NCBI GenBank assembly: GCA_040388375.1
Contig: JAZKBU010000003.1
Location: forward strand, 248,001-312,000
From: Bacteroidota bacterium
GTDB lineage: Bacteria; Bacteroidota; Bacteroidia; UKL13-3
DNA length: 64,000 bases
Reading direction: 5' to 3'
Part shown: positions 18,818 to 51,874 of the stretch, piece by piece
How positions within the stretch are numbered: the stretch's first letter is position 1
Layout: each line of letters opens with the position of its first letter
Notes under the pieces: model-generated
Database searches by the model: none
What the model was told of the DNA's origin: nothing
What the model saw: only the letters and a program-made list of their open reading frames with translations
Position numbers and translations under genes: made by a program

Positions 18818-18846
18818 AAAAAAAGCCCTGCATTTCTGCAGAGCGA
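18818..18846 (-). terminator. Terminator of the beta-helix protein gene
   Basis: On the minus strand GCTCTGCA pairs with TGCAGGGC (one G-U pair) around a GAAA loop, followed by seven T residues. It is 46 bp beyond the stop codon. Confidence 0.82.
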
Positions 18847-18891: not shown

Positions 18892-21800
18892 TTATCGTTT
18901 CATCACTTTTAATACTTGTGTTTCACCATTAATAGTGACTTTTACAAAGTATACTCCTGATGTAAGGTCGTTTATTTTAGCTGCAGGTATATTATTGGTA
19001 CCAGGCATAACAGGCGCAATTTGTTTACCCACTAATCTTCCCTGTAAATCTATTGTTTCTATTAATGCGTCTCCGGTAATAGTGGTGCTTAAAGCAAGTG
19101 TATAGTCGTTTATAAATGGATTTGGATATACTGAAACTGCGTTTGTTTGTTGCCCATCAGTGCTCACTTTTACTGAATTTGAATACGTATATTTTCCATC
19201 CGTATCTATTTGCTTTAAACGATAGTATAACAGGTTACTGTTGGTTTTAGCAAAGGCTTCATTATCTGAAATAGTATAATGTAATACTTTGTTACTATTA
19301 CCTGCACCCTTCACAAATCCTACAAATTCGAATGTGTAACCATCTGTGGAACGTTCTACCTCAAACCCTTTGTTATTGTTTTCTGATGCTGTTGACCATG
19401 ATATGATAACATCTGTTGCTTTCAATCTTGCGGTTAGTTGCAATAACTTTACAGGTAATGGAGAACTTGCAATCTCATCAGCTCCGATATATGGCTTAAC
19501 AGACCTTGTTTGCCCATCAAAATCAATATTAATACCGTTTATTATAACACCTTCGAAAGTATGTACACCCGCCATAACTGTGGCTAAATGTAAATCCTGG
19601 TTGGAAACAAAAGCTACAATAGTGTCTTTAGAATTGGCATCAACGGTTGAAGCTGTTTGCCAGTCAGCAAAAAATTGTTGTCCCAGATTGTTAAATATAC
19701 CTATAGAATCAGCCCTGTAAATATTGTTGTTTTGTGTAAGTGTATTTGCATTATTTAAACCAATGGCTAAATGTCCTGCACCAAATCCACCACTGTTTCT
19801 TGCATTCACAAATATGTTGTTTCTTACATCATCTGTACCAGCACCAATACGTTGAAACGCAAAAGTTCTGTTAACACCGGGAGAAACGCCTACTCCTCCA
19901 ATTTTAACAGTATTAAAGTAAATATTGGCAGAACCTGTATTTTTAATAATTCCGTTTATAGCACAAGCCGCTGATACACTCGAACCCAAATTGTCAAAAC
20001 CAAGACTAATCATATTATTGGTTACAGTTGTGTTCCCTGCTAATAAATTTAATCCATTCATAACAACATAAGGATTGTAAGCGGTTATGGATAAACTGTG
20101 TACCAGGTTGCCATTCACCGCATTATTTCCGGTGGTATTGGTATTAAATACAATGCCCGCAATATTTATCGTGTCCACGATTGACGGATTGGTTAATACC
20201 AATGAATGAACCACATTGCCGGAAGCAACCTGTGAAGTAGATGCAACAGCATCAACCACAATACCCCCCAATGTTGCAAAAACTCCGTTATTTTTTACAC
20301 GGGAAGCCGCACGGATATTCTTTACCGTGTTACCTATTACCGAATCAGTACCAGTTACAGTTGGCCCTATATAAATTCCTCTTGTAGCTGAGTTAAGGGT
20401 TGTTGCAGATTCATACGCATTTGTAATATTGGCAATAGTGTTATTAAAGATTTTATATGAATGACCTGCTGTAGACGAGTTTGCAAATACACCGCTTACT
20501 CGTTGTAATGTTACACTCGAACTGCTCGTGCTTAATATATTGATACTATTGGACAAAGTAGTATCTCCAATCAGGTTATTGATTACATTAACTTTTGCTC
20601 CACCTGAAATATTAAATCCAAAAAACTCAGGAGCCGTAGTAGTGCTATTTCCGTATAAATTAATTCCACTAGCAATGTTATTGGTTATATTGATTGTATC
20701 TGTAGTTGCAGCCGCACTTGAAGTTCCAAGACCGGCACCTGTTCTTATTACCATAAAACCGCCATTGGTAGTTGTAAAAGTGGTGAACGTGATTGCCCCA
20801 TTTACAAATCTTGAACCAATCAGGTTCCCGTTACAGTTAATTTTTCCACCTGAAAAATTAAATGCAACAAATGATACTGAAGATGAAGCAGAAGTTGAAT
20901 CGTTAAAATTGGTAATGGTATTTCCTTGTACTGTGGTTGCAGCACCTTTGCCAACAGATATTTCCATTGCAATATACTGACGTAAGCCTGTTGAAGAAGA
21001 CGCACTCGCCATTTCGTAAATTCCCGTTCCGTCTGCTGCATTTCCTCCAATAAAATTACTATCAATTGCAAATCCGCTTGAAGTTGTTAAGTCGGCAGTA
21101 TTAGGTGTAATCCAGAACCCTCTGTGCACAACGGCTGCTGTATAAATTCGCTTAGCTGTTTGATACAAATGATTTTTTTTGATTACCCAAGAGCTGTTGT
21201 TAGCTCCAACATAAATACCAGCAGTCGTTGCAGAGGTTAAATAGAAATCATAAATATTACAATTCTCTATGCGGTTATTGTCATTATTGGTTAACGTTGT
21301 TGTTGCCGAACCAATTGATGAGATACCAACTGCCGGCAAACCGGTAGCACCTCCATGAATATCACAAAAACGGATAATATTTGAATCGTTGCCATTGGTA
21401 CCGGTGGTTGTTCCAAAATTCACCACACCTGCGGTAGCTATAGCCGCTGCTCCCGTATTAGTCCCGCGTAAATCGGTATACAAAATTTTATTTTTAGAAG
21501 CATCATTTATAAAACGAACAGCAGGAGCACTTGTACTTGTATTACTAATGACCAAATTAGCTCCTAAAGAAAATCCACCACTTCCATTTATACTTCCGTC
21601 TATAATAAAGTTAGAACCTCCATTAAAGTCAATAGTTGCTGTATTGTTTGAGCTTTCTATTGTTGAGCCAACTACGTTAGGTATAATAGTAATTGTGTTA
21701 ACTGCAGAAGCTCCGGTTATTGTATTTAATATGATTGGGAATGTTTCACCGGAACTTGCATTGTATAACGCATCCATAAGCGTTAAGGTTACGGGCCCGT

Positions 21801-24800
21801 CTATTCCTATAGTTGTAAGTTCATTTATTGCAGATGTAATGGTAGGAAAAACGTACCCAACCCCTATATAGTAATTTCCTGACATAGGTGCCTTTACCTG
21901 GATATTACCGGTTGGGTTTCCATTGATTAATCCAAATGAATTTCCACTTATAGTTATACTGGTTACGGCTGCATCAACAAAATTGTTTGGAGTTGCTGTT
22001 GAAGAAATGTCGTATACAACCCAAAAATAATTAGCGCCTCCGGCTAAAGTGGCCGAACCTGAAATAGTATAAGAGCTTGCCGGAGCAACCGACCCAAACA
22101 ACTGTGGATTTGTGAAGGTAGAATCAGAAGCCGTGTAATAAATTTTAGTATTGGCAATATCTGTTGTACTACTTGAACTGGCTAAAGTTAAGTGGAAAGC
22201 AGTTGCCTGTAAAGCATTCATTCCTTTTTCAGTATACACCCTTACGCGTAACATTTTTACATTATTAGTCCCCCTTAAAACCAAACCCGTATATTGGTCG
22301 GCATTTGCGGAATCAAAAATCATTTGATTAGCAACATTGCCTGTATAATTTCCTTCAAAGGCACCTATATCAGGCAGCCCTGATGTTCCGGTATAACCCG
22401 AATACCCGGCTCTTACCTTTCCGCTATAATCTGTTTTAACATCAGTTATAACAGACCCGTTGGCTTCAATTTGTGTTAAAATAGTTGAATCTATATTTAA
22501 GAATAAATTTGAACTACCTGTTGTACTTAAAAAGTTAGGAATTTCAGTTACTGATAAAGTTTCTCTTGGTGTTACCCTTGTTTTGTAATCAGCTATTGTT
22601 TGATCAGCATTTGCGCCATCGTAAAAAATGAGATTGGTTGCACTTGGAGTACCCGAATAAAACAAATTATTGTTTGAGTTTAAATTAAAGTTACTCAAAT
22701 TAGTAGAGGCCGATCGTCTGAAAGCTGATGTGAAACCGGTTCCGTTTGCGGTTGATGTATTCACAATAATATTATTGCGCATATCAAGCGCAGCAGAGGT
22801 GGCTGTAGCACTATAAGTATGGTAAACACCTGCAGTTGAAAAGTTGGTTCCCGTTGACGTGGCATTCAAATAAATAGTATTGTGGTAAACGCCTAAAGTA
22901 GTTGAAGCAGATGTGCTTGTCAAATCAATACCTCTTACAGTAGGCGTTGTACCTCCATTTGATGCAGATGCGCTCAAGCCGGAAATTAAATTATTATAAA
23001 CGGTTGCTTTACCTGCTGTTGAGGCTGATAGAGTAATACCCGAAACAATCAATGAAGTACTTGTTGTACTTATATTATAAATTTTGTTTGAAAAAATGCT
23101 TGGTACACTAGAGGTTTGAAATATTCCGCTTACCGAACCACCACCACTGATTGCGTACAACGTGTTACGGGAAACCGTTCTTACACCTGTAGTAGTAGCC
23201 GTATAAATACCATAAGTATTTCCTGTGCTCAAGTGCGAAAGATTGTAGATAGTATTGTAATTATAATTCTCGTTAGTAGTTGTAGACGAAACGTAAATTC
23301 CATACAAACCGGCTGTTCCGGTACAGCTTAAATTAAAAATAGTATTGCTGTCACAAATAATAGTTCCACCAGATAATTGAATTCCATACAACGTACTTGA
23401 TACTCCTGTTCCGGCAACATTAATATTACTTATTGTATTTCTTTTTACAGTAGTTGTTGATGTTCCTGTTGATCCGCCTGAATGATAAATACCAATAGTA
23501 GTTCCTCCTCCGGTTCCATTACGTGAAATATCGTTTATGGTGTTATCTGAAATACTTATAGCAGGTGTAGTGCTGTTGTAAAATATTCCATAAATTGTTT
23601 TAGTTGCAGAGCCTGCCGTACTAAGTATTGTTTTAGTAATAGCATTACTGTTTATATTTAAAGCTACTGATGGAGCTGCTAATACACCAATAGTATAAAA
23701 GCTACCTGTTAGATTGGCCCCTGTTAATACAGTAGAATCAATAGTATTATTTAAAATATTTAATGTGCCACATGCCAACTGGCTCAAAATAACTTCTGAG
23801 GTTGCAGTACCTGCATAACTAAAACCATAAAAATAATTGTTAGTAACATTTACCGTAGTTGCTGCTGTATTTAACCAAACCGCTGTGAAAGCTACTGTGC
23901 TTGCTGCTGTTACATTACAATTTAAAAATTGGTTATTCTTAATGTTAATAGTATTTCCATTTGCCCCGCTCTGTGCCATTTCCATATCAATGCACCAGTT
24001 TATGGTACTTGTACTTGTTCCTCCATTAATGGTAATTTTGTTATATGTTATATCACAACCTGCTCCTATAGAAGACCCATACAACCAAATTCCTCTGTTG
24101 CTGGTTGGATGGTTTATACCCGCACCGTTGTTGTTATTGATATTATTGTATGAAATATTAAAACTCCATTGATTGTGAATGAAAATAGCACCACACTGAG
24201 CAGTTGCACCTGAACCACCACCAAAATTAATAATGGTATTTCCTGTTGCAGCTGAGCTTCCACCTATATCATTATTTACATCAGCTAATGTGTATGGACT
24301 TGGGGCAGCATAACCACCTAACGAAATTCCAAAATTTACATTTTGAATAGTGTTACCGTAGAATTTATTATTAGAGCTGGCTCCCGATACAGAAGTAACC
24401 GTAATGATGTTTCCAACCGAAGTGGGTGTGCAGGCCATTACTTCAATACCTACCGAACCTACAGCATTACTACGCGGCCCTGTTGAAGCTGTTGAATTAT
24501 TTCGGTTAAGCGTTACAACACAGTTTTTAATGGTGTTATTATTTACCCCGTCTGTAGCGCTTGCTTTGTACAATCCGTAACCTACTTCCATTTGAGTAGT
24601 AGCCGTTGTATTCGTTATCGGATCGACTAAATCAATTCCATTTATGGTAATATAATCAGAGCCAACAAGGCTCCACATAATATCAATAGAGGCGTTAGAT
24701 GAAGCCAGCTGTGTACCTGCATAAGCCGTAATAACTGGGTTGGCACCACCACCATTTTTTGCAAAAACAATAGGGTTTGCAGCGGTTCCTGTTGCCGTTA

Positions 24801-25044
24801 CCTGTAGCTGACCGGATAATGTTTCCGTATAGCCGGCCGCAACATTAAATGTTACGCCTCCCGTACCAACACCATATAAATTTAAAGAATCAATGGCAAT
24901 TTTGATAGAAGAATAATTGGTGGAAGGGACAGTAATAGAACCTGTTAATTGTCCAAATGCGTTTTTTCCTGCAAGCAGCATGGTAAAAAGTAAACAGACC
25001 ATAGCAGCCAATCGAAAGGATGTGTTTTGTAATTTTTGATTCAT
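18892..25044 (-). CDS. Giant T9SS-secreted parallel beta-helix protein
   Basis: A 2050-residue surface or secreted protein. The signal peptide covers residues 1-32 (hydrophobic LAAMVCLLFTMLLAG, ending FGQ). Residues about 60-880 and 1060-1840 are rich in short Asn/Thr/Ser/Gly-rich repeats of the form NxIxNxxxxG, typical of right-handed beta-helix folds such as pectate-lyase-like and adhesin domains. The block between them (about 905-1060, NQMIFDSANADQ onward) is a separate beta-sandwich-like module. Residues about 1860-1965 (LPVKLLQLTA, FEVERSTDG, YYRLKQIDTDG) form the fibronectin-like module that often precedes T9SS tails. The last 80 residues (VYPNPFINDYTLAL ... VLKVMKR) are a type A sorting domain. 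A TAGATTTG -7 box and a 17-bp palindromic site lie upstream. An adhesin or polysaccharide-binding role is inference. Confidence 0.88.
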   Translation of the reverse strand: MNQKLQNTSFRLAAMVCLLFTMLLAGKNAFGQLTGSITVPSTNYSSIKIAIDSLNLYGVGTGGVTFNVAAGYTETLSGQLQVTATGTAANPIVFAKNGGGANPVITAYAGTQLASSNASIDIMWSLVGSDYITINGIDLVDPITNTTATTQMEVGYGLYKASATDGVNNNTIKNCVVTLNRNNSTASTGPRSNAVGSVGIEVMACTPTSVGNIITVTSVSGASSNNKFYGNTIQNVNFGISLGGYAAPSPYTLADVNNDIGGSSAATGNTIINFGGGSGATAQCGAIFIHNQWSFNISYNNINNNNGAGINHPTSNRGIWLYGSSIGAGCDITYNKITINGGTSTSTINWCIDMEMAQSGANGNTINIKNNQFLNCNVTAASTVAFTAVWLNTAATTVNVTNNYFYGFSYAGTATSEVILSQLACGTLNILNNTIDSTVLTGANLTGSFYTIGVLAAPSVALNINSNAITKTILSTAGSATKTIYGIFYNSTTPAISISDNTINDISRNGTGGGTTIGIYHSGGSTGTSTTTVKRNTISNINVAGTGVSSTLYGIQLSGGTIICDSNTIFNLSCTGTAGLYGIYVSSTTTNENYNYNTIYNLSHLSTGNTYGIYTATTTGVRTVSRNTLYAISGGGSVSGIFQTSSVPSIFSNKIYNISTTSTSLIVSGITLSASTAGKATVYNNLISGLSASASNGGTTPTVRGIDLTSTSASTTLGVYHNTIYLNATSTGTNFSTAGVYHTYSATATSAALDMRNNIIVNTSTANGTGFTSAFRRSASTNLSNFNLNSNNNLFYSGTPSATNLIFYDGANADQTIADYKTRVTPRETLSVTEIPNFLSTTGSSNLFLNIDSTILTQIEANGSVITDVKTDYSGKVRAGYSGYTGTSGLPDIGAFEGNYTGNVANQMIFDSANADQYTGLVLRGTNNVKMLRVRVYTEKGMNALQATAFHLTLASSSSTTDIANTKIYYTASDSTFTNPQLFGSVAPASSYTISGSATLAGGANYFWVVYDISSTATPNNFVDAAVTSITISGNSFGLINGNPTGNIQVKAPMSGNYYIGVGYVFPTITSAINELTTIGIDGPVTLTLMDALYNASSGETFPIILNTITGASAVNTITIIPNVVGSTIESSNNTATIDFNGGSNFIIDGSINGSGGFSLGANLVISNTSTSAPAVRFINDASKNKILYTDLRGTNTGAAAIATAGVVNFGTTTGTNGNDSNIIRFCDIHGGATGLPAVGISSIGSATTTLTNNDNNRIENCNIYDFYLTSATTAGIYVGANNSSWVIKKNHLYQTAKRIYTAAVVHRGFWITPNTADLTTSSGFAIDSNFIGGNAADGTGIYEMASASSSTGLRQYIAMEISVGKGAATTVQGNTITNFNDSTSASSSVSFVAFNFSGGKINCNGNLIGSRFVNGAITFTTFTTTNGGFMVIRTGAGLGTSSAAATTDTINITNNIASGINLYGNSTTTAPEFFGFNISGGAKVNVINNLIGDTTLSNSINILSTSSSSVTLQRVSGVFANSSTAGHSYKIFNNTIANITNAYESATTLNSATRGIYIGPTVTGTDSVIGNTVKNIRAASRVKNNGVFATLGGIVVDAVASTSQVASGNVVHSLVLTNPSIVDTINIAGIVFNTNTTGNNAVNGNLVHSLSITAYNPYVVMNGLNLLAGNTTVTNNMISLGFDNLGSSVSAACAINGIIKNTGSANIYFNTVKIGGVGVSPGVNRTFAFQRIGAGTDDVRNNIFVNARNSGGFGAGHLAIGLNNANTLTQNNNIYRADSIGIFNNLGQQFFADWQTASTVDANSKDTIVAFVSNQDLHLATVMAGVHTFEGVIINGINIDFDGQTRSVKPYIGADEIASSPLPVKLLQLTARLKATDVIISWSTASENNNKGFEVERSTDGYTFEFVGFVKGAGNSNKVLHYTISDNEAFAKTNSNLLYYRLKQIDTDGKYTYSNSVKVSTDGQQTNAVSVYPNPFINDYTLALSTTITGDALIETIDLQGRLVGKQIAPVMPGTNNIPAAKINDLTSGVYFVKVTINGETQVLKVMKR

Positions 25045-25067
25045 TATTTGGTTTAAAATTTTCGAAT

Positions 25068-25075
25068 CAAATCTA
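25068..25075 (-). promoter_or_regulatory. -7 promoter box of the beta-helix gene
   Basis: TAGATTTG on the minus strand fits TAnnTTTG. No TTG is visible at the usual upstream distance, which fits a promoter that depends on an activator. Confidence 0.55.
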
Positions 25076-25098
25076 TAGGTTCACCTGCATGAATGCAC

Positions 25099-25115
25099 CC
25101 ACATGAGCATGTAGG
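25099..25115. promoter_or_regulatory. Candidate response-regulator binding site upstream of the beta-helix gene
   Basis: CCACATGAGCATGTAGG contains the dyad ACATG-AG-CATGT. It matches a site upstream of the response regulator gene at 15 of 17 positions. Its centre is 35.5 bp from the centre of the -7 box, which places it near -44, a usual activator position. Confidence 0.55.
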
Positions 25116-25218
25116 ATATTGAAAAATAAGGCGTTTGGGGCGTTAATGAGCAATCATTTGAAAGAGAATAAATGATAAGGTCAAATGGATAATTTAGTAT
25201 TGTAGAAACTACTTAAAA

Positions 25219-25851
25219 CTATATTTCTCCTTTAAGCGCTTTAGTAATTACCTCTGTTTTGCTGTTTACCTGCAGTTTGCGGTAAATATTTTTAATATGA
25301 AATCGAACAGTATCAATAGTGATGAGCAGTTTTTCGCCAATCAATTTATAGCTTAAACCTTCTGTTAAAGCCATAATAATTTGTTTCTCTTTTTGTGTTA
25401 GAGGTTCATCGTATTCTTTCTTTACCGGTGAAAAATATTCCATAACCCTCCTGGCAATAGAAGGAGTCATGTAACTGCCTCCTTTGTTTATTTCAATGAT
25501 GGCTTTTTTGATTTCAGGTAATGGAGTATCTTTCAATAAGTACCCTGTTGCACCAGCACAAATAGATTTAAAAATTTTATCGTTATCCTTAAATACCGTT
25601 AGCATAATAATGTCGGTATCGGGCCATTGCGCTTTAATTTTTTTCATGCCATCAATGCCATTCATTCCCGGTAATCCAATATCTGTAAGAATAAGATCCG
25701 GCCTGTGAGTTGAGTCAACGGCATTAAAAAAGGCTTCCACACTATTGCTTACTAAAATGCAATCCATTTCGTGCTGTTGCTCAAAATAATCTTGCAAATT
25801 TTCCCTTATGTCGTCAATGTCTTCTATTATGGCTAATTTAATCTTACTCAT
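25219..25851 (-). CDS. NarL/FixJ-type response regulator
   Basis: A two-component transcription factor of 210 residues. The receiver domain (residues 1-120) has the acidic pair ED at residues 10-11, the phosphoacceptor Asp57 in LILTDIGLPG and the conserved lysine in GYLLKDT near residue 108. A LuxR-type helix-turn-helix follows (about residues 145-208; LTQKEKQIIMALTEGLSYKLIG, then TVRFHIKNIYRKL). It lies 68 bp downstream of the propeller-type kinase gene on the same strand and surely pairs with it. A palindromic 17-mer lies 50-66 bp upstream of its ATG and recurs before the beta-helix gene, which suggests autoregulation and control of that gene. Confidence 0.93.
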   Translation of the reverse strand: MSKIKLAIIEDIDDIRENLQDYFEQQHEMDCILVSNSVEAFFNAVDSTHRPDLILTDIGLPGMNGIDGMKKIKAQWPDTDIIMLTVFKDNDKIFKSICAGATGYLLKDTPLPEIKKAIIEINKGGSYMTPSIARRVMEYFSPVKKEYDEPLTQKEKQIIMALTEGLSYKLIGEKLLITIDTVRFHIKNIYRKLQVNSKTEVITKALKGEI

Positions 25852-25870
25852 CCTCTTGCTAATTAATCAT

Positions 25871-25878
25871 CAAATTTC
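25871..25878 (-). promoter_or_regulatory. -7-like box of the response regulator gene
   Basis: GAAATTTG on the minus strand differs from TAnnTTTG at one position. It lies 34.5 bp (centre to centre) downstream of the palindromic site. Confidence 0.4.
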
Positions 25879-25900
25879 AGTAAATAATTGGATTTATAAA

Positions 25901-25917
25901 CCACATGACAATGTAGG
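25901..25917. promoter_or_regulatory. Candidate response-regulator binding site upstream of its own gene
   Basis: CCACATGACAATGTAGG is a dyad ACAT-GACA-ATGT in the 68-bp gap between the kinase and regulator genes. It matches the site at 25099-25115 with two mismatches, both in the spacer. Confidence 0.55.
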
Positions 25918-25919
25918 GG

Positions 25920-28871
25920 CTATATTAATACCGTTACTTCAAAAGAATCCTCCGTTTTATGAATAACAGATGTCCCCTTTAACAGCTCTGCCCTCATCTT
26001 AATATTACTAAGTCCCTGGCCCGTATGCACCGTTTCTTTATTGGGTATTACACCATCATTTTTTACTTTCAACAAGCAATGTTCTTTTGATTGCTTATAG
26101 GTGATTTGAACATTTTGCGCATTGCTATGCTTGATAATATTATTGATTGTTTCCTTGAACAGCAAAAATAAATGCTGCCTGAATTCAGGTGATAGTTTTT
26201 CCTGGTGGTCAATTTTCGCAAAATCAATAGATAAGCTTACTCCTCTTGGGAAAAGTAAATCTTCAGCATGTTCCCGCATCCTGTCAGTTAAGTTGCCCGT
26301 AAAATCATTTCGGGAATCAATGGCCCACAATACATCACTCATAGCCACATTTGCTTCTCTGCTCAGTGTTGCCACTCCTTCTAATTTATCTCTTGTTTCC
26401 GAATCTCTTGACATTCTTGTTGCCAGCCTGTCAGCCGACATAGTAATACGTGTAAGTAAACTACCCACTTCATCATGCAAATCACTTGCAATTTTCATGC
26501 GTAATAATTCTAGTTTTTTCTGGTTATGCAACCTGTTTAAAAAGTAAAAATAAATGAGTGCTGCAATGCCCGTTGCCAGCAAAAGGTAAAACCATATTGT
26601 TTGATAAAAGGTTTGCTTAACCAATAAATTATACGTTAATATATTAGTTGATGATATACCCCTGCTTCCTTTGGTAGCCTTAATTAATAACTTGTATTCC
26701 CCACTTGTTAAGCTCTCTAAACGCAATGTTGATTCCGTGCCTAATGAAATCCAGTCAGCAGCATGTTGTCCTTCTATTTTGTAAAAATAAGTATGCAATT
26801 CGGGAGCGGTATAATCAGTTACTGAAAACGAAAAGCTTAACAAATTATCTCCGGGATACATAACAATTTTATTGTCGGCTTGTACATGAACATCCAAAAT
26901 TTCTTTTGATTCTTTTTCCCATTTATGTATACCGGAAACAAAAACCTGATATGGAATTTCATGTATGTCTAATTGAGGCGGATAGAAGGATGTTATGCCA
27001 TTAATTCCTCCAAAATACAACTTTCCATCGTTTGCCCTGAATGAAGAGTTTTGATTGAATTCATTATCTGTTATGCCATCCGATTTGTAGTATTGAATAA
27101 TCGTTTGGGTTTGCGTGTGGTAATAATTTAACCCATTGTAAGTGCTTATCCATAGCCTCACGGAATCTTGCCATTGCATACTATACACTTCATTACTGCT
27201 TAAACCATCCTCCTTCGCAATCGTGTATATTTTCTTTAGGTCTGCTGATAATACATTGATTCCTCCTGACTCTGTTGCAATCCAAATATTTCCTTTGGTG
27301 TCAGTTGTTATGGCATTAATAAGACTACCACTTAAGGCTGGTGTTGTACGTTCATCAATATAAAACATCGTTCCTTTATATTTGTCTACCAAATAGGCTC
27401 CCTTGTCAGTACCTACCCAAAACTGCCTTTTACCCGGTAACATATACATAAAACGTACAGCCGATCCTCCTACACTGTATTTATCATTTGTATGGCAAAA
27501 AAGTTTAGACTTAACAATATCAAAGCTCAACAATCCATTTTCAGAACCTAGCCAGATAATTCCTTCAATATCCTGTACCAGTGCCAAAGAAGAACCTTTT
27601 GTATCACACATTCCATCTTCAGAACGGTAGAACAAACTTTCAATAGATTGAGTATGCTTGTTATAACGGACAAAATAATTAGCATCAGAGCCCATATAAA
27701 TATAACTGGTATCAACATTTAAAAGTGAGCGCAGAGAAAAGGGTTCAGTTTTCCCTTGGTACATTATTTTATCCCGGTTGGTCCATGTATGTCTTCTTTT
27801 TTCATACTTCAAAAAACCCGCATAACTTGCCACATAAATATCTCCGTTGGTGTCTTCAATAATTTGTCTTGTACTTACTTTTTTAGGCTCGTTATAAAGT
27901 AATTTTTCAAATACCGGTTTAGGTTTGTCGGGAATTAATTTAATAAGCCCTTTATTGGTACCAATCCAAATTACATTAAACTCATCTTCGTAGAGGCAGA
28001 AAATACGCTTATGGCCAATCACGTTATTATCGTTTACCGATATGTCTGTTGTTTTAAAAGTTTTCTTTTCTATTTTAATAATCTTGGTAAAATTCCTGTA
28101 TCCTATTAAAACGTGGTCTTTTTGATCCAATAAATATTCCGGGTCCTGTTTAACTGAATTCAATGAATCGAAAGAAATGATTGCATGAGCAGCATGTGTT
28201 AAATTTTTAATCCCTATATTAACACCACCTGCATACAGTTGATCAGAAATGAGTGTTAAAAAAGTAATGGAGCGGTTACGCTGACTTGGTATATAAGCCA
28301 CTTTTTCTGTTCCGGCAACTAATTTTATAATATCGTCTCTCTTTGTTAGGCGAGCATAAATATTTCCCAACTTATCCACCTGCATTCTGTTATTCTTGAG
28401 TTGACCTTGTGCAAAATGGTATATTACTTTACAACTCCAATCGGGAGCAATTTGTAGAATATACTTATAGTGAAAGCCAACAATGATATTGGAATGAAAG
28501 AGTGCTAAACACATGACCGCATTTTTTTTTGACGAAGGAGTACATTGTATTATATGGCCATCTTTACAAGAAATATACTGAAGCCCTATATCCGTTCCTA
28601 TCCATACAACATCACGAAATTCATCATACAGAATAGTATATATGAAGAGCTTTTTAAGAGGTGCAATTTCAGAAAAAGTATTGCCATCATATTTGTAGAG
28701 TCCATGCTTGGTTGCAATCCACATCATACCCGATTTATCTTTGGTAATAGCTGTTACCTCAATATTATTCAGGCCCGCCTCTTCATTAAACAATATAGCT
28801 TTTGCCTGAGCACATACTGTGGAAAGTAAAAGCCCCAAAACAAAAAAAAGAGTAGCGATTTGTTTATTCAT
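25920..28871 (-). CDS. Propeller-type sensor histidine kinase (Reg_prop, Y_Y_Y, HisKA_3, HATPase)
   Basis: An inner-membrane kinase of 983 residues. A signal peptide (MNKQIATLFFVLGLLLSTVCAQ) leads into a large periplasmic sensor of about 670 residues with propeller repeats such as DKSGMMWIATKHGLYKYDG, IWIGTNKGLI, IWLGSENGLLSF and IWIATESGGINVL. A Y_Y_Y-like domain (YFYKIEGQ) follows. One membrane helix lies at about 757-777. HisKA_3 has its phosphoacceptor His near residue 798 in SDLHDEVGSLLTR, and the ATPase domain covers about 880-983. It resembles hybrid carbohydrate sensors but lacks fused receiver and AraC domains. The partner is the separate NarL-type regulator just downstream. A frame start at 28925 exists. 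The Met at 28871 opens a proper signal peptide, so it is preferred. Confidence 0.93.
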   Translation of the reverse strand: MNKQIATLFFVLGLLLSTVCAQAKAILFNEEAGLNNIEVTAITKDKSGMMWIATKHGLYKYDGNTFSEIAPLKKLFIYTILYDEFRDVVWIGTDIGLQYISCKDGHIIQCTPSSKKNAVMCLALFHSNIIVGFHYKYILQIAPDWSCKVIYHFAQGQLKNNRMQVDKLGNIYARLTKRDDIIKLVAGTEKVAYIPSQRNRSITFLTLISDQLYAGGVNIGIKNLTHAAHAIISFDSLNSVKQDPEYLLDQKDHVLIGYRNFTKIIKIEKKTFKTTDISVNDNNVIGHKRIFCLYEDEFNVIWIGTNKGLIKLIPDKPKPVFEKLLYNEPKKVSTRQIIEDTNGDIYVASYAGFLKYEKRRHTWTNRDKIMYQGKTEPFSLRSLLNVDTSYIYMGSDANYFVRYNKHTQSIESLFYRSEDGMCDTKGSSLALVQDIEGIIWLGSENGLLSFDIVKSKLFCHTNDKYSVGGSAVRFMYMLPGKRQFWVGTDKGAYLVDKYKGTMFYIDERTTPALSGSLINAITTDTKGNIWIATESGGINVLSADLKKIYTIAKEDGLSSNEVYSMQWQDSVRLWISTYNGLNYYHTQTQTIIQYYKSDGITDNEFNQNSSFRANDGKLYFGGINGITSFYPPQLDIHEIPYQVFVSGIHKWEKESKEILDVHVQADNKIVMYPGDNLLSFSFSVTDYTAPELHTYFYKIEGQHAADWISLGTESTLRLESLTSGEYKLLIKATKGSRGISSTNILTYNLLVKQTFYQTIWFYLLLATGIAALIYFYFLNRLHNQKKLELLRMKIASDLHDEVGSLLTRITMSADRLATRMSRDSETRDKLEGVATLSREANVAMSDVLWAIDSRNDFTGNLTDRMREHAEDLLFPRGVSLSIDFAKIDHQEKLSPEFRQHLFLLFKETINNIIKHSNAQNVQITYKQSKEHCLLKVKNDGVIPNKETVHTGQGLSNIKMRAELLKGTSVIHKTEDSFEVTVLI

Positions 28872-29013
28872 GTATGAAACATTGTACACCTGTAGTCGTG
28901 CAAACAAATACATTATGCAAAACAAATACAGGTAAACATTTTATTTAGCAGCAATCATACTAAAAAAGCAGATTCTTTTTATTTAAGTGCGATGAATACA
29001 TTTATTTTGCTCA

Positions 29014-44548: not shown

Positions 44549-47500
44549 TTGGAAGTAACAAAATTTACATATATCAATTTTAAAAAAAGCCTATGTCAAA
44601 AATCTACATTGTTAAGTAGAAAATTTAAATTTAGTTTATACAACATAAGTCTGTTTGCTGTGTTAAGCAGTATGGCTTTTGCTATGGTGTCAACCACAAG
44701 TGCTCGTCCTGCGCGTTTGCGAAGGGATTTTATTTTATTACCTCCTGATAGCACTAACAAAAAAGACACTACCACTAAGAAATTACCTTTTCCGCTTAAG
44801 GATAAAAAACCTTGGGAAACAACCAGAAAAACCAATCCATTTGATTTAAACGATCCACCAAATATTAAAAGCAAGTATGAGTTAGATCCTCAAAAAAACC
44901 AGTATAATTATTCTTCAAAAATTGGAAACTATAATTACGGTTTACCTGCCAGTGAAACATTTAGTGAGCGTTTAAAAAACGAAAACAAAAAATCCAATAA
45001 GCAGTATTTTAAACAAAGATCGCAAGCCAATAATTTTGCAAAAGGAAGTAGCATAGTTCCGCCTATTCAAATACCAAGCAAGGCTTTTGATAAAATATTT
45101 GGAAGTTCTGTTATTGATATAAGACCAAGAGGAACAGCTGAACTTATATTTTCTTATAACGGAAATGAAGTGCGTAATCCTGCTTTCTCTTTACGCCAAC
45201 AAAGTACCTCTCAGTTTGATTTTAAACAAAAAATACAGTTGAATGTTGCAGGTTCGGTTGGTGATAAGGTAAAGGTAAACATGAATTACGATACCGAAGC
45301 CACTTTTGAGTTTGAGAATCAAATGAAATTGGATTATTCGGGTAAGGAAGACGATATTATTAAGAAAATAGAATTGGGTAATGTTGGCTTGCCTTTAAGT
45401 TCAAGCTTAATACAAGGTAGCCAGAGTTTGTTTGGGGTTAAAACAACCATGCAGTTTGGCCGCTTAACCGCTACAGCCGTTGTTTCACAACAAAGAGGGC
45501 GCAGTACTGAAACGGAATTGCAAGGCGGTGCCACCAGTACTAAATTCGATATTCAATCAAGTAATTATGATATGAACCGCCATTTCTTTTTGGCGCAATA
45601 TTTTTATCAAACGTATGATAATGCGGTAAGTAATTTACCCATTATTAATAGTAATGTAGTGATTACCCGTGTGGAGGTTTGGGTAACCAATAGAACAGGA
45701 GCTTTTGATAACTCGCGCGATGTTGTTGGTTTTTCTGATTTGAGTGAGGCCAGTCATCGTATTAATCAATTATGGCAGGTAAACAGCAGCCCTTTTGATA
45801 CGGCATTGAGTAATAAAGTAAATGGTTTGTGGGGTTATTTAAATGGTAGGGGTAATGCACCTGTGGCAGAAGGACCAATTACTAATCCAGATGTAAAAGC
45901 CAAGTTGAGTTCTTCAAAAAATGTATTGAACCAATTAGTGGCAGATGAAGCTGTAACAGGTCTTAAGCCATTGAACCAATATATGTTGGTTAATTACGCT
46001 CGCCAGTTAAACCCTAACGAGTATACATTTAATAACAGACTCGGATTTATTTCCTTGAACCAGGCATTGAACAATGATGATGTGTTAATGGTGGCTTTTG
46101 AAGGAAGCATAAATGGCAGGCCATTTAAAGTAGGAGAGTTTAGTGCTGATAAAGCACCTAATCCTGATGACCCGAATGTGTTGTTTTTGAAAATGATAAA
46201 AGGGCCATCGCAACGTCCGGATTTACCCATGTGGAAGTTAATGATGAAAAACGTTTATTCATTAGGTTCGTTTGGTATACAACCTACTAACTTCAGGTTA
46301 AACTTAGTGTATGCTGATGATCCATCGGGAGCGGATTTAAATTATTTACCTGTAAAAAATGAGCCTTTATTGAATGATCAGGCCTTATTAAATGTGTTCA
46401 ATTTAGATAAGTTAAATCTTCAGCAGGAAAGAGTTTCGGATGGTGTTTTTGATTTTATTGAAGGCGTAACAGTATTGTCTCAAACGGGTAGAATTATTTT
46501 ACCATCAGTAGAACCATTTGGAAAATATCTAAAGTCAAAGTTTATTAATAATCCAACCTTGGCCGATTATTATTGTTATTCGGCCTTATACGATAGTACC
46601 AAGTTTGCAGCTATTCAATTGCCTCAGTTTGATAAATTCTTTTTAAGAGGAAGTTTTCAAGGTTCTTCCAATAACGAAATTTCAGTAGGGTCAACCAATT
46701 TACAGCCGGGTTCGGTAAGAGTAACTGCCAATGGCGCACCATTAACAGAAAACGTAGATTACACAGTTGATTATAGTTTAGGCAGGGTTAGAATTGTAAA
46801 TACAGCGTTGTTAAATTCTAATGCTACCATTAAAGTTTCAACAGAAGGAAATAGTTTGTTTAATGTGCAGCAGCGTACCCTAGTAGGAGCTCGTTTGGAT
46901 TATAAAGTGCATAAGGATTTTTTACTGGGATCGACTTTTATTTACATGAATGAAAAGCCTTTAACACGAATAGTAAATGTGGGAGAGGAGCCTATTTCAA
47001 ATTTAGTAGTTGGCTTGGACGGAACATACAGACGCAACTCAAGGTTTTTAACAAAAATGGTCGATAAATTACCATTTATTGAAACCAAAGAACCTTCTAC
47101 TTTCTCCGTAACGGGCGAGTATGCACACCTGATACCGGGTATAAACAGCGCACTTAGCCAAGGTGGCACAGGTTATATTGATAACTTTGAAAATGCTGAA
47201 ATTCCATTTGATTTAAAATCACAAAGCTCATGGTTTTTAGCAAGTACTCCGCAAGGGCAGCCGGATATGTTTCCGGAAGGGAATACTTTAAACTCATTGG
47301 AAAATGGATACAAGAGAGCAAAAATTGCGTGGTATACTATTGCTACAAATTTCCATAACTCCAACGATCCTTATATGCCACAACATATAAAGGACAATCC
47401 GGGTGTTATTTCAAAACACAATGTACGACAAGTTATTGTACAGGATATTTTTGCGGCTAAACAAATTCAACCAGGTTTGCCAAATACTTTACCAACCTTA

Positions 47501-50500
47501 GACTTATCTTTTTATCCAAGTGAAAGAGGGCCGTTTAATTATAACGTAAACAATTTACAGGCGGATGGAAGGTTAGGTAATCCAACAGGTAACTGGGGTG
47601 GTATTATGAGAAGGATTGATCAGAATGACTTTGAACAATCTAATATTGACTATATAGAAATATGGATGCAAAATCCGTATGAAGACAATCCGGCCAGTAC
47701 GGATAAAGGAGAGTTGTATATTAACATAGGAAACGTAAGTGAGGATATATTACGTGATAACAGAAGAATGGCTGAGAATGGTTTGGCTAAAGAAGCTGAT
47801 AGTTTATCCATAGCCCAATCAACAGATACGACTGTATGGGGAAGAGTACCGCATAACCAGGTTATTAATTATGCTTTTGATGCCGATGCCGGGGTTCGCC
47901 AAAGACAGGATGTGGGTTTGGATGGTTTGGACGATAATGCAGAAAGAGAGTTTTTTAAAACCAGTTATTTGGGTGCAATAGCTCAAAAGTTTGGCCCTAC
48001 TTCTACTGCTTATAACTTAGCTAATGAAGATCCATCTGCCGATAACTACCATTACTTTTTGGGAGGTGATTATGACCAAGGTAACTTAGATGTATTGCAG
48101 CGTTATAAAAAGTATAATATGTCACAAGGAAACTCGCCAATTGTTGGTCAGGGTCCTGAGTCATACCCCACGGCAGCTTCCAACCAACCCGATGTAGAAG
48201 ATATAAACAGAGATTTTACTACGAATGATATTGAAGCTTATTTCCAGTATAAAATAGATATATCGAAAGAGAAATTTGTAATCGGGCAAAACTATGTGAC
48301 GGACAGTGTAAGAAATGTTGTTTCGTTTGCCAATCAAAATACGGCTCCTGAAACATGGTACCAATTGAAAATTCCGGTAAGGGAATTTCAGCGCCAGGTG
48401 GGTGATATTACCGATTTTAAATCAGTACGTTTTATGCGTATGTTTATGAGAGGTTTTAAAGACAGTACCGTATTGCGTTTTGCCTATTTGCAATTGGTAA
48501 GAGCGGATTGGCGTAAATATACCAATAACTTGGAAACAGGTGGCGAGCATAAACCTGTTGATCCAACTGATAATACCCAATTTGTAGTATCAACAGTTAA
48601 TATTGAAAAAAACGGTAGCAGAACACCCGTACCTTATACCACACCCCCTGGCATTGACAGGCAGATAGATTTCAGCTCCCCACAAAACATTCAACAAAAT
48701 GAGCAATCGCTTTCTTTATTGGTATGTAATTTAAAAGATGGTGATGCGAGAGCTGCATTTAAAACAGCCAACGTTGATATGCGTCAGTACGGTAAATTAC
48801 GCATGTTTGTGCATGCTGAAAGTGCGCAAGCTAAGAATGGTGATTTACGTGCATTTATTCGTTTAGGAACAGATTTAATAAATAACTATTACGAGTACGA
48901 AATACCATTAAACTTAACATCATTATCAGGAACCTCGAACAAAAGTGAAGTTTGGGCTAATGAAATGGTTATTAACTTAGAAGATTTAGTAGAAGCTAAG
49001 ATAGCACGTAACAATGCCAATTGGGCTTTTACATTACCTTATTCTGTACAAAAAGGAAATGGAAGAATAAGCGTAGTAGGTATGCCTGACTTTAGCCAGG
49101 CCCGTGTTTTAATGGTGGGTATTCGTAATCCTAAGCGTGAGTCGGGTAGTACAATCGATAATGGTTTACCTTTATGTGGTGAGGTTTGGTTTAATGAGTT
49201 GCGTATGACTGAATTTAATACCAGAGGTGGTTGGGCTGCAAATGGTAGAATGCAGGCTAAGTTAGCCGATTTAGGAACCGTTCAGTTAGCAGGAAGTATT
49301 GTTACCAATGGTTGGGGTGGTGTAGATAAAAAATTGCAGCAACGTGCTATGGATGATACTTACCAATATGATTTAACAACACAGTTTGAGTTGGGTAAAT
49401 TTTTCCCGGTAAAATCAGGTTTATCTATTCCATTCTTCTTTTCATACGGTAATACTTTAATCAGACCATTATACAATCCATTAAATCCCGATACCAAATT
49501 ACAAAAGGAGTTAGATGAAACAACCAATCCAACAAGGCGGGAACAAGTATCGCGGGCTGCAGATGATTACACCACAAGGCGGAGTTATAATTTTACCAAT
49601 GTCAGGAAAAACAGGGTAGGCAGTAAAAAAGCCTATCCTTGGGATGTAGAAAATTTATCGGCTACTTATTCATTTAGCGAAACCTTTAGGCGAAACCAAC
49701 AGTACGAAAGTTATTTGTTACAGATTTATCAAACCATACTTGGGTATAATTATACTTTTGTGAACAAGCCCGTAGAACCATTTGCCAAAGTTGTAAAATC
49801 AAAACATTTGGCACTGATAAAGGATATAAACTTTAACTATTTGCCATCTAACTGGGGAGCAAGGGTACAAGTAGACAGGCGTTATGGTGAAACCATTAAC
49901 AGAACCAATGACAATACTGGTTCATTACTTATGCCTGCTTTTTACGATAAGTTATTTACCATGCGCAGAACGTATGATTTAGGCTGGCAATTTACCAAGA
50001 GCATTCGGATAGATTACAATGCGATAGCTGATGCCAGAATTGATGAACCCAATGGAAGAATAGATGGTTCAACACCTAATAAAACAGATAGTATTTATAA
50101 TAATTTTTGGAAAGGAGGGCGTTTAACGCAATACGACCAAACAATCAGAGCCAATTATAATGTACCAATAGCTAAGTTACCGTTTTTAGATTTTATCAAT
50201 CAATCAAGTTATACATACGCAGTTACTTATCAGTGGAAACAAGCACCACCTGCTGCTGATAGTTTGGGTAACACTATTCAAAACTCGCGTCAGCAACAAT
50301 TTAATTTAGGAGCTAATGTTACTACACTGTACAATAAGTTTAAGTTTTTGCGCGATATAAATACACCACAGCAAGCCAGTAAACCTAAACCGGCAGCTAA
50401 GCCTAAACCAAAAAATAAAAACAATAAGAAAGACAATAAAGGTAAAAAAGTGGTAGAGGAAGAAACGCCTGAAGAGGAAGAGGAGGAAGCCAAGAAAATG

Positions 50501-51874
50501 CCAGCCGCGGCTACTGCTGCCTTCAAGTTCTTAATGGCTATCAAAAATATTTCAGGTTCATACAGTTTAACAGAGGGAACCATTATGCCGGGCTTTAAGC
50601 CCAAGCCAAACTATTTTGGACAAAACAATGATTTAAATGCTCCCGGATATGGATTTATATTGGGAGACCAGGATCCTAACTTTAGGTTCGAAGCAGCTAA
50701 AAATGGTTGGTTGGGTACGGATCCTAGAATGAATAATGCTTATGGGCAAAACATTCAGGAGCGTATAAATGGAAGAATTACCTTGGAACCTTTTGAGGAT
50801 TTTAGGGTAGAGCTAAGTGTAGAAAAGTCAACCCAGAATAATATTACTTCTATATTCCGTTACGATGAATTTGATGTTACCGGAAAACCATTTAAAGATT
50901 TTGGCTACCAGGAAACGGGAAGCTATAGTATTAGTTACGGAACTTGGAGCACTGCTTTTACCAGTGACAATGCACAAGGAATATCGTCCGTATTTACCCA
51001 GTTTGAAAACAACAGACTTGAAATATCCAATCGTTTAGCTGCCGAAAAAAATGGGGGAACTACCACAGGATTAGCACGCGATGATAATGGTTATGTGATT
51101 GGTTACAGCCGCTATAGCCAAGATGTATTAATACCTGCTTTTTTAGCTGCATACAGTGGCAATAGTGCAAGTAGTATAGCATTGACTCCTTTCCCTAAAT
51201 TGCCTATTCCAAACTGGCGTATTAACTACAATGGATTATCGAAATTATCGTTTGTTAAAAAATGGGCTAATAATATAGCCTTAAGCCATAGCTACTCATC
51301 AACCTATACGGTTGGCAACTTTTTAACACCAACAGCTTTAGAAAGAGATACCGCTGCAGGTGAAACCGATGTGCCTTCAAAGTATATTATACGTGGTGTA
51401 AGTATAAGTGAGCGATTTGCTCCGTTAATAGGTGTAGAGATTACTTTGATTAACAATATAACAACATCAGTTAAGTATAATAAAGATAGAATGTTGAATC
51501 TGGCCTTAGGTTCACGTCAGCTGAATGAACAAATAGGCGAAGAGTTTACGTTTGGTTTTGGTTACAGGACTAAAAAATTGAAAATTCCACTGGGACGCTC
51601 ACGCCAGATTGTATTGGAAAACGATGTTAATTTCAGGATTGATTTCTCCATACGCGAGAATGAAACAAAAATTAGAAACTTAGATAGAATAAGCAATGAA
51701 CCGGTTTTAGGGCAAACTATTTATAGTTTCAGACCGAGTGTTGACTACCAGATAAATGAAAAATTAATGCTTCGTATTTTTTACGACAGACGACAAACCA
51801 ATCCATCTACCTCCAACCAATTTCCAACCATTATTTCAAGCGGTGGCTTTAGTTTACGCTACACTATCCAATAA
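44549..51874 (+). CDS. sprA: SprA (Sov), T9SS outer-membrane translocon
   Basis: The 2441-residue SprA forms the single-chain 36-stranded outer-membrane channel of the T9SS, through which folded cargo exits to PorV. A hydrophobic segment (residues about 30-50, FSLYNISLFAVLSSMAFA) is the signal peptide. The family pattern is visible in GSSVIDIRPRGTAELIFSYNGN near residue 190, KVKVNMNYDTEATFEFEN near residue 235, and QGSQSLFGVKTTMQFG near residue 290. Long aromatic-rich barrel strands follow. A Lys/Pro- then Glu-rich low-complexity stretch (about 1945-1985, nt 50386-50500) is a likely flexible loop. No ATG occurs in the expected region, so TTG at 44549 or another TTG nearby must start the gene. 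It follows ruvA by 33 bp and works with Plug and GldJ from this window. Confidence 0.95.
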   Translation: MEVTKFTYINFKKSLCQKSTLLSRKFKFSLYNISLFAVLSSMAFAMVSTTSARPARLRRDFILLPPDSTNKKDTTTKKLPFPLKDKKPWETTRKTNPFDLNDPPNIKSKYELDPQKNQYNYSSKIGNYNYGLPASETFSERLKNENKKSNKQYFKQRSQANNFAKGSSIVPPIQIPSKAFDKIFGSSVIDIRPRGTAELIFSYNGNEVRNPAFSLRQQSTSQFDFKQKIQLNVAGSVGDKVKVNMNYDTEATFEFENQMKLDYSGKEDDIIKKIELGNVGLPLSSSLIQGSQSLFGVKTTMQFGRLTATAVVSQQRGRSTETELQGGATSTKFDIQSSNYDMNRHFFLAQYFYQTYDNAVSNLPIINSNVVITRVEVWVTNRTGAFDNSRDVVGFSDLSEASHRINQLWQVNSSPFDTALSNKVNGLWGYLNGRGNAPVAEGPITNPDVKAKLSSSKNVLNQLVADEAVTGLKPLNQYMLVNYARQLNPNEYTFNNRLGFISLNQALNNDDVLMVAFEGSINGRPFKVGEFSADKAPNPDDPNVLFLKMIKGPSQRPDLPMWKLMMKNVYSLGSFGIQPTNFRLNLVYADDPSGADLNYLPVKNEPLLNDQALLNVFNLDKLNLQQERVSDGVFDFIEGVTVLSQTGRIILPSVEPFGKYLKSKFINNPTLADYYCYSALYDSTKFAAIQLPQFDKFFLRGSFQGSSNNEISVGSTNLQPGSVRVTANGAPLTENVDYTVDYSLGRVRIVNTALLNSNATIKVSTEGNSLFNVQQRTLVGARLDYKVHKDFLLGSTFIYMNEKPLTRIVNVGEEPISNLVVGLDGTYRRNSRFLTKMVDKLPFIETKEPSTFSVTGEYAHLIPGINSALSQGGTGYIDNFENAEIPFDLKSQSSWFLASTPQGQPDMFPEGNTLNSLENGYKRAKIAWYTIATNFHNSNDPYMPQHIKDNPGVISKHNVRQVIVQDIFAAKQIQPGLPNTLPTLDLSFYPSERGPFNYNVNNLQADGRLGNPTGNWGGIMRRIDQNDFEQSNIDYIEIWMQNPYEDNPASTDKGELYINIGNVSEDILRDNRRMAENGLAKEADSLSIAQSTDTTVWGRVPHNQVINYAFDADAGVRQRQDVGLDGLDDNAEREFFKTSYLGAIAQKFGPTSTAYNLANEDPSADNYHYFLGGDYDQGNLDVLQRYKKYNMSQGNSPIVGQGPESYPTAASNQPDVEDINRDFTTNDIEAYFQYKIDISKEKFVIGQNYVTDSVRNVVSFANQNTAPETWYQLKIPVREFQRQVGDITDFKSVRFMRMFMRGFKDSTVLRFAYLQLVRADWRKYTNNLETGGEHKPVDPTDNTQFVVSTVNIEKNGSRTPVPYTTPPGIDRQIDFSSPQNIQQNEQSLSLLVCNLKDGDARAAFKTANVDMRQYGKLRMFVHAESAQAKNGDLRAFIRLGTDLINNYYEYEIPLNLTSLSGTSNKSEVWANEMVINLEDLVEAKIARNNANWAFTLPYSVQKGNGRISVVGMPDFSQARVLMVGIRNPKRESGSTIDNGLPLCGEVWFNELRMTEFNTRGGWAANGRMQAKLADLGTVQLAGSIVTNGWGGVDKKLQQRAMDDTYQYDLTTQFELGKFFPVKSGLSIPFFFSYGNTLIRPLYNPLNPDTKLQKELDETTNPTRREQVSRAADDYTTRRSYNFTNVRKNRVGSKKAYPWDVENLSATYSFSETFRRNQQYESYLLQIYQTILGYNYTFVNKPVEPFAKVVKSKHLALIKDINFNYLPSNWGARVQVDRRYGETINRTNDNTGSLLMPAFYDKLFTMRRTYDLGWQFTKSIRIDYNAIADARIDEPNGRIDGSTPNKTDSIYNNFWKGGRLTQYDQTIRANYNVPIAKLPFLDFINQSSYTYAVTYQWKQAPPAADSLGNTIQNSRQQQFNLGANVTTLYNKFKFLRDINTPQQASKPKPAAKPKPKNKNNKKDNKGKKVVEEETPEEEEEEAKKMPAAATAAFKFLMAIKNISGSYSLTEGTIMPGFKPKPNYFGQNNDLNAPGYGFILGDQDPNFRFEAAKNGWLGTDPRMNNAYGQNIQERINGRITLEPFEDFRVELSVEKSTQNNITSIFRYDEFDVTGKPFKDFGYQETGSYSISYGTWSTAFTSDNAQGISSVFTQFENNRLEISNRLAAEKNGGTTTGLARDDNGYVIGYSRYSQDVLIPAFLAAYSGNSASSIALTPFPKLPIPNWRINYNGLSKLSFVKKWANNIALSHSYSSTYTVGNFLTPTALERDTAAGETDVPSKYIIRGVSISERFAPLIGVEITLINNITTSVKYNKDRMLNLALGSRQLNEQIGEEFTFGFGYRTKKLKIPLGRSRQIVLENDVNFRIDFSIRENETKIRNLDRISNEPVLGQTIYSFRPSVDYQINEKLMLRIFYDRRQTNPSTSNQFPTIISSGGFSLRYTIQ

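Follow-up and report, generated by a model that had tools for sequence, protein, structure and literature searches.

A HisKA_3/NarL-type regulatory pair and a giant type IX secretion cargo joined by a 16-bp dyad: a probable switch for exchangeable surface proteins in Bacteroidota

The 64,000-nucleotide stretch of contig JAZKBU010000003.1 analysed here (the window), from a Bacteroidota bacterium, carries on its minus strand three consecutive genes encoding a sensor histidine kinase, a NarL/FixJ-type response regulator and a giant cargo protein of the type IX secretion system (T9SS). The original prediction, made from the letters of the DNA, had read these genes as one module. Their open reading frames (ORFs) were confirmed and the domains are as it described, with the Y_Y_Y match of the kinase lying below the Pfam cut-off. 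The gaps between the genes, 68 bp (kinase-regulator) and 174 bp (regulator-giant), each contain one 16-bp dyad followed by a promoter-like box.

25920-28871, minus strand: sensor histidine kinase, 983 aa from ATG (ORF and Pfam)
26328-26501, minus strand: HisKA_3 domain, kinase residues 791-848 (Pfam)
25901-25916, no strand assigned: operator-like dyad 1 between kinase and regulator, reading CTACAT-TGTC-ATGTGG on the minus strand and centred 57 bp upstream of the regulator start
25871-25878, minus strand: promoter -7-like box GAAATTTG, 5/6 to TAnnTTTG, 22 nt past dyad 1
25219-25851, minus strand: NarL/FixJ-type response regulator, 210 aa, receiver D57, LuxR-type helix-turn-helix (HTH), helix DTVRFHIK (ORF and Pfam)
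25099-25114, no strand assigned: operator-like dyad 2 between regulator and giant, reading CTACAT-GCTC-ATGTGG on the minus strand and centred 62 bp upstream of the ATG of the giant
25068-25075, minus strand: promoter -7-like box TAGATTTG, 6/6 to TAnnTTTG, 23 nt past dyad 2
18892-25044, minus strand: giant T9SS surface protein, 2050 aa, signal-peptide-like N terminus (ORF)

The open frame of the kinase extends upstream to a TTG at 28925. The kinase matches Reg_prop with 79.6 bits and HisKA_3 with 33.5 bits (cut-off 24), along with weaker matches to Y_Y_Y (21.5) and HATPase_c (19.6), both under their own curated Pfam cut-offs. A profile built from five kinase sequences matches the solved Reg_prop/YYY sensors 4a2l, 3v9f and 3ott, the kinase core matches DesK, and residues H799, N910 and N911 are invariant across the five aligned kinases. 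The regulator scores 77.7 bits for Response_reg and 56.1 bits for GerE, with D57 and K107 invariant in all seven regulators compared. A HisKA_3 domain with its conserved histidine and a separate regulator composed of a receiver and a GerE/LuxR HTH place the pair in the classical HisKA_3/NarL-FixJ two-component class. The regulator is indeed a protein separate from the kinase, as originally proposed; this arrangement is not unusual for Reg_prop sensors, 80 such Reg_prop/NarL pairs having been collected.

A second copy of the module is present on contig C4 of the same genome, where a kinase, a regulator and a 2314-residue T9SS giant follow one another in the order and strand seen in the window, separated by gaps of 66 and 128 bp. 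The C4 kinase is the nearest relative of the window kinase within the genome (36% identical), the two regulators are 58% identical, and the giants are related over about 1400 residues (34%). The third Reg_prop/NarL pair of this genome (L027) has no adjoining giant and no dyad, and a further pair, L159 (C4:194-196 kb), has no dyad and is followed by a gene of 169 aa. A second kind of sensor also stands beside giants in this genome: at L030 3365-16478, on contig C5, two giant T9SS proteins (1991 and 1424 aa) are encoded downstream, and on the same strand, of a TPR His_kinase PF06580 protein and a LytTR regulator, which represent another two-component type.

The gene-order search gave 64 genomes, all of one family (G numbers below); loci named outside this family are taken from the best 80 of 320. 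Among the matches listed, the window kinase is found at E<=1e-110 in four of the 64 genomes (its own, G065, G066 and G072), and G010 was reached separately. In G065, the gene behind kinase and regulator runs off the contig and encodes at least 1027 aa of a secreted protein. In G066 the kinase contains an in-frame stop (L041 5777-8728) and is followed by the regulator and a secreted protein of at least 436 aa, again cut by the contig end; despite the split kinase, the regulator and the downstream gene are open as far as seen. In G072 a 650-bp gap separates the regulator from the giant, which is 3225 aa long and contains three LamG stretches as well as a sorting domain. More distant pairs in G050 and G055 precede an FG-GAP protein (at least 767 aa) and a discoidin-domain protein (at least 2247 aa), respectively. 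The slot behind the regulator is thus occupied in relatives by LamG, discoidin or FG-GAP giants. We considered the beta-helix gene as the conserved partner and rejected this, the giants of G066, G072 and G055 having no BLAST match to the window giant. The G065 giant matches a giant on contig C6 of the window genome and 69 residues of the C4 giant, and the G050 giant matches only 29 residues of the G055 giant.

Outside the family, the closest kinases among the best 80 of 320 loci belong to four Taibaiella species (34-37% identical). Related Reg_prop/NarL pairs followed by T9SS-tailed proteins of 430-1056 aa were also seen at L077, L084, L088, L090, L101, L108 and L117 (Ignavibacteria, Melioribacteraceae and others); the gaps at these loci contain no exact-core dyad, and L117 has one-mismatch sites.

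At the family loci, 7 of 66 NarL-type regulators (the window's own being among the 66) have a giant as the next gene, as compared with 13 of 621 other gene pairs (Fisher 0.0016). When only giants with at least 1000 aa seen are considered, the counts are 5/66 and 7/621 (Fisher 0.003). The giant-followed pairs are also restricted to one clade. In a FastTree tree of 80 kinase-regulator pairs, which has long branches, a fully supported branch separates 25 rows, eight of them followed by a giant, from 55 rows with none (Fisher 3.7e-5, the rows not being independent). Mapped on this tree, the trait requires 5 changes against a shuffled mean of 7.7, a value as low being reached in 2 of 500 shuffles. 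For the tree, a giant was defined by a hydrophobic N terminus and at least 1000 aa, or at least 430 aa if ended by the contig; the sorting domain is seen in four of the eight (window, C4, G072, L111), and the remaining four are cut by contig ends. Regulators without a same-strand kinase of hidden Markov model (HMM) score >=200 directly upstream were left out, as were L049, L050, L109, L112, L113 and L118, which are duplicate records of G genomes.

The presence of the dyad in both module gaps is a new finding. It spans 16 bp with the core ACAT-N4-ATGT, or more generally NNACAT-N4-ATGTNN with paired outer bases. In the 3.97-Mb genome, the exact sequence CTACAT-N4-ATGTAG occurs only at C4:343090 and C4:343809, which are both gaps of the C4 copy. 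Among seven sites with one mismatch, two are both gaps of the window copy, three lie in ORFs, one lies by its coordinates within the ORF of the C6 giant, and one lies at the start of sprA. Hence, four of nine sites fall inside the 436 bp of module gaps, where 0.001 sites are expected, for a pattern itself drawn from these gaps. The site at the sprA start (window 44604-44619) is probably due to chance, because its core is broken (AAGT for ATGT).

A listing of palindromes with 4-base arms that presupposes no pattern returns the same element. ACAT-4-ATGT is found in seven of eight regulator-giant gaps, with a shuffle maximum of 2-4. In the 25-locus clade no other combination of 4-mer arm and loop length (11 lengths compared) occurs at as many loci (14); the runner-up, found in nine loci, is part of the same dyad. 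The strict dyad occurs in 10/25 kinase-regulator gaps and 6/25 gaps between the regulator and the next gene of this clade (shuffle means 0.04 and 0.05), as opposed to 3/152 other gaps. At the remaining 55 loci the corresponding counts are 0/55, 4/55 and 1/295. When matches are selected by the core alone, the outer two positions still pair in 11/17 and 13/17 matches (binomial 0.001 and 3e-5). This count replaces a covariation count with 98.7% paired cells and with changes on both sides at the two outer pairs, which we set aside, its sites having been partly chosen for pairing. In G065 the single match of the dyad in the genome sits in the regulator-giant gap. In Croceitalea, both places of TCACAT-N4-ATGTGR in the genome are within its kinase/regulator locus; in Flagellimonas, one of two such places lies before the kinase and the other in an ORF.

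The position of the dyad relative to the genes is likewise constrained. In 9 of 10 kinase-regulator matches it is centred 44-57 bp upstream of the regulator start, and ahead of the giants this distance is 61-255 bp. The Bacteroidota -7 box is TAnnTTTG at -12 to -5 (PMC9723704), and such a box (at least 5/6 letters) starts 22-23 nt after the dyad in all six exact-core CTACAT-class module sites (two each in the window and C4 copies, one each in G065 and G066). The best offset in 3000 shuffled sets of six sites never exceeded 4/6. Among all 30 listed sites, seven have the box at that spacing, a number that 5 of 1000 shuffles attained at some offset; the box at that spacing is absent at the one-mismatch kinase-regulator site of G066 and at the G050 and G055 sites. 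A dyad 22-23 nt before the -7 box would be centred near -43, beside the -33 element, which corresponds to an activator position. For NarL, PMC7419079 describes a 7-2-7 inverted repeat and one activating site centred at -44.5 at ogt. The full -33/-7 pattern was found once, just past the dyad in the C4 regulator-giant gap, and partial matches are present in four other gaps, including those upstream of the C4 kinase, in G072 and in G050. Three kinase-regulator gaps of a genus designated g2, to which G072 belongs, show a -7-like box at 34-35 nt. G055 and G050 have theirs at 33 nt, the spacing recorded for the regulator-giant gaps of L168 and L165 (TACTTTTG, TACTTTCG), about one helical turn beyond that of the window copy.

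Dyad sites away from the module add a connection in trans. Five g2 genomes contain 21 perfect GTACAT-N4-ATGTAC sites, ten of which precede module, giant or secreted genes. Two of the ten are in module gaps, and four are centred 103-205 bp before a LamG-type 3122-aa T9SS giant (G010, G072) or its contig-cut relatives (G076, G077). Three more sit 30-58 bp before a secreted protein, with DUF5122 propeller repeats where scanned (G076), and one precedes a 300-aa secreted protein. Over more than 3000 residues, the giant beside the regulator in G072 shares 33-35% identity with these trans giants. G066 has two matches, one in an ORF and the other, a perfect CTACAT dyad, 72 bp upstream of the gene for a 1325-aa T9SS protein that carries DUF5122 repeats. 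Weak hints come from Taibaiella, with a site 69 bp before a small secreted protein in T. lutea and one of three sites 53 bp before a 659-aa T9SS protein in T. helva. In G010 (L190 ~10046, contig C5), 23-bp perfect arms form an inverted repeat whose tip is the dyad before the 3122-aa giant; in G077 (C143) this repeat has diverged and its arms measure 17 bp. Genus g2 also conserves a perfect dyad that lies between convergent genes or behind a regulator gene (L188 10035, L228 3400 and L178 6748), with 19 bp separating it from the end of the next gene.

We also compared the outer dyad bases with the recognition-helix residue x in T(V/I)RxHI(K/R), which follows a conserved Arg. At exact-core sites, K goes with GT (7/7), M with AC (2/2) and S/A/H with TC (6/6, one being TA/TC). 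F/Y goes with CT at three of four exact-core sites (the fourth is CC/CT), or four of five when L041 (Y, one core mismatch, CT) is included. Among core-mismatch sites outside this tally, L145 (F) has CT. The helix pattern fitted 62 of 80 regulators and did not fit 18, and 42 of the 62 have no dyad site. We regard the match between helix and operator as supporting evidence only, because few lineages contribute to it and many F/S/Q/T regulators lack a site.

The features of the giant protein and its downstream end are as follows.

21940-22281, minus strand: BNR_assoc_N domain, residues 922-1035 (Pfam)
19465-21927, minus strand: predicted beta-helix region, residues 1040-1860 (AlphaFold2 model and structure alignment)
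18892-19131, minus strand: type A T9SS C-terminal sorting domain, residues 1972-2050, and stop (TIGR04183, 38.4 bits)
18825-18844, minus strand: terminator-like stem-loop and T run, 48 bp past the stop of the giant (consensus match only)

With 38.4 bits against a cut-off of 23, the sorting domain identifies the protein as a type A T9SS cargo. No beta-helix Pfam match was found at E<=0.01, and a sequence search of the PDB gave no match. The AlphaFold2 models cover residues 30-620 and 1040-1860 only. The former is weak, with a predicted local distance difference test score (pLDDT) of 59, and the latter is an all-strand solenoid (pLDDT 76; predicted template modelling score, pTM, 0.83) that aligns to lyases, epimerases, tailspikes, pertactin and PfbA with Z up to 25. 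These proteins are right-handed beta-helices, and residues 1040-1860 are accordingly predicted, from the model, to form a parallel beta-solenoid of this type. The original description of a beta-helix giant therefore stands in part, as a prediction for this region; a beta-helix protein as the conserved member of the module does not, given the LamG, discoidin and FG-GAP proteins of the relatives. The genome contains 144 T9SS sorting-domain matches in 3.97 Mb, many in giant proteins; some lie in open frames of more than 3000 residues, one of 6214.

These observations can be best explained by an autoregulated two-component switch of the classical, non-hybrid type that controls exchangeable giant T9SS surface proteins, a reading that we consider probable. 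That the three genes form a unit with a surface protein as its output, as first proposed, is borne out by the C4 copy, by G065 and G072 and by the contig-cut G066, with the dyad linking regulator and giant both in cis and in trans. The periplasmic propeller/Y_Y_Y part of the kinase would sense a ligand, perhaps glycan-like, upon which the HisKA_3 core would phosphorylate D57 of the regulator. A regulator dimer might then bind the 16-bp dyad before its own gene and before the gene of the giant, activating both. In relatives, the sensor, regulator and dyad are retained, and the giant is exchanged or located elsewhere behind a dyad. The role in adhesion or matrix formation originally suggested for the giant may apply, and its predicted beta-helix also resembles polysaccharide lyases and epimerases. 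We further hypothesize, with somewhat less than even confidence, that the unit is a transplantable cassette. Its sensor, NarL-type regulator and private 16-bp operator would be kept, and the giant would be swapped among beta-helix, LamG, discoidin and FG-GAP architectures and sometimes moved away together with an operator. Recognition helix and operator would change together so that cassettes stay apart, and the Reg_prop sensor would choose which giant coat protein is displayed.

Several observations weigh against the proposed switch. Among the matches listed, the window kinase is found at E<=1e-110 in none of nine congeners. At six of seven g2 loci (G010, G073, G074, G076, G077 and G078; the G076 contig covers the regulator only) no giant adjoins the pair and a convergent gene comes next. 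None of the four Taibaiella loci has an adjoining giant, and one of them has no called regulator beside the kinase. Such absence, named beforehand as speaking against the module, is found in part, although four of those g2 genomes carry the dyad elsewhere, ahead of a giant or another secreted gene.

Further points of this kind concern the dyad, which was first noticed by eye in the gap sequences and tested afterwards. At up to two mismatches it occurs 170 times in the window genome and its backward control 244 times, so that the signal lies in placement and not in number. Most genomes as a whole contain no clear excess of dyads over control sites: BTACAT-N4-ATGTAV and its control give 6/4 in the window genome, 1/5 in G065, 2/6 in G066, 8/5 in G010, 4/6 in G076 and 5/6 in G078, the dyad being clearly above control only in G072 (9/2) and G077 (6/1). 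The four Taibaiella genomes have 9 dyad sites and 14 control sites. Eleven of the 25 clade loci lack the core in both gaps; these include three Taibaiella loci and the giant-followed L111. Among the 21 g2 sites, six lie between convergent genes or just past a gene and five in ORFs (three judged by an identical 16-mer only). No trans site has a -7 box at 22-23 nt, and some are the tip of longer inverted repeats with arms of up to 23 bp. Finally, among the untallied core-mismatch sites, CC is found with F at L104 and L117, and TA with Q at L082.

One alternative is a chance neighbourhood: in a genome this rich in T9SS cargo, giants could land near a pair that regulates something else. The 144 sorting-domain matches and the many relatives without an adjoining giant are what such a scenario would produce; the excess of giants behind NarL-type regulators (the window being among the 66), their restriction to one clade and the common dyad with its promoter spacing are not, and we consider it very improbable. 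Only slightly more credit is due to the possibility that another regulator binds the dyad, or that it acts as a structured RNA or attenuator hairpin, with the two-component pair as just one more target. A hairpin is a possible reading of 6-bp arms around a 4-nt loop, some sites lie between convergent genes, and the arms are long at G010 C5 (23 bp), G077 C143 (17 bp) and the kinase-regulator gap of G078 (16 bp), leaving room for another role at a few sites. Most sites, however, have arms of just 4-8 bp, and the outer positions still pair in the core-only matches as the loop varies. At six module sites the spacing of the -7 box puts the dyad upstream of the transcript, the sites cluster at the loci of this regulator clade, and their outer bases track the regulator helix.

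The remaining alternative concerns the output and is compatible with the switch. The giant could be a surface polysaccharide lyase or epimerase in a variant glycan-response locus, serving glycan processing and not adhesion. Its best structural matches include polysaccharide lyase family 6 (PL6) alginate lyases and mannuronan C-5 epimerases, and the sensor half resembles Bacteroides glycan sensors. A common beta-helix fold shows no function, however, since PfbA, pertactin and tailspikes match at similar Z; Pfam gave no carbohydrate-enzyme family match in the giant, and relatives carry LamG, discoidin or FG-GAP giants. We regard glycan processing as unlikely, though the least unlikely of the three.

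The module is flanked by three named genes on each side: infB, a HAD phosphatase gene and a ribokinase-like gene, the last being the gene after the giant, and an argD-like gene, pyrD and purA. No SusC/SusD gene is among these six, no search of the whole window for SusC/SusD having been made. The window also encodes the T9SS translocon SprA/Sov (44549-51874; TIGR04189, 2485.6 bits), the only component searched for. No terminator-like site lies between the three module genes on their strand, in a scan that as a whole equals shuffles (7 versus 6.7). A scan for E. coli-type promoters was no better than shuffles either (41 found, 42.3 expected).

No description of this module was found in the literature searched, which lacked most subscription papers and does not say how a single giant T9SS gene is switched on. 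If the proposed switch is real, the role of Reg_prop sensors extends beyond glycan-import loci, their best-known use. The set of sensor, regulator and operator would then be a testable code, in which dyad and spacing could predict which giant a sensor controls.

Among known systems, the giant gliding adhesins of the SprB type are likewise giant surface proteins exported by the T9SS (PMC8986121). The window giant has a type A sorting domain, a predicted beta-helix and a ribokinase-like next gene. PorX and PorY belong to other protein families than the window pair. Porphyromonas PorY/PorX(-SigP) also represents two-component control tied to the type IX system, and the sources (PMC4800418, PMC8050853, PMC5005315) disagree whether PorX acts directly on genes. 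PorXY targets genes of the secretion machine, whereas the targets of the window switch would be single giant cargo genes.

The large periplasmic Reg_prop propeller and Y_Y_Y sensor of the kinase are shared with the Bacteroides hybrid two-component systems (HTCS; 4a2l, 3v9f, 3ott), which are defined by having all phosphorelay domains and the output in a single polypeptide (PMC3243724). The window system differs in its two proteins, its LuxR/NarL-type HTH, its DesK-like HisKA_3 core and a giant T9SS neighbour in place of a SusC/D locus; it is not an HTCS, because the regulator is separate and the six named neighbours include no Sus genes. With NarX/NarL, UhpB/UhpA and DesK-type systems it shares a HisKA_3 kinase and a separate receiver-LuxR-HTH regulator, and the short dyad beside a promoter resembles that of NarL. 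The NarL 7-2-7 operator has two 7-base elements 2 bp apart; the window dyad also spans 16 bp, with conserved ACAT/ATGT arms four bases apart. The giant periplasmic sensor and the T9SS cargo target further distinguish it from these systems. By its parts, the window system is a HisKA_3/NarL two-component system with an HTCS-like sensor.

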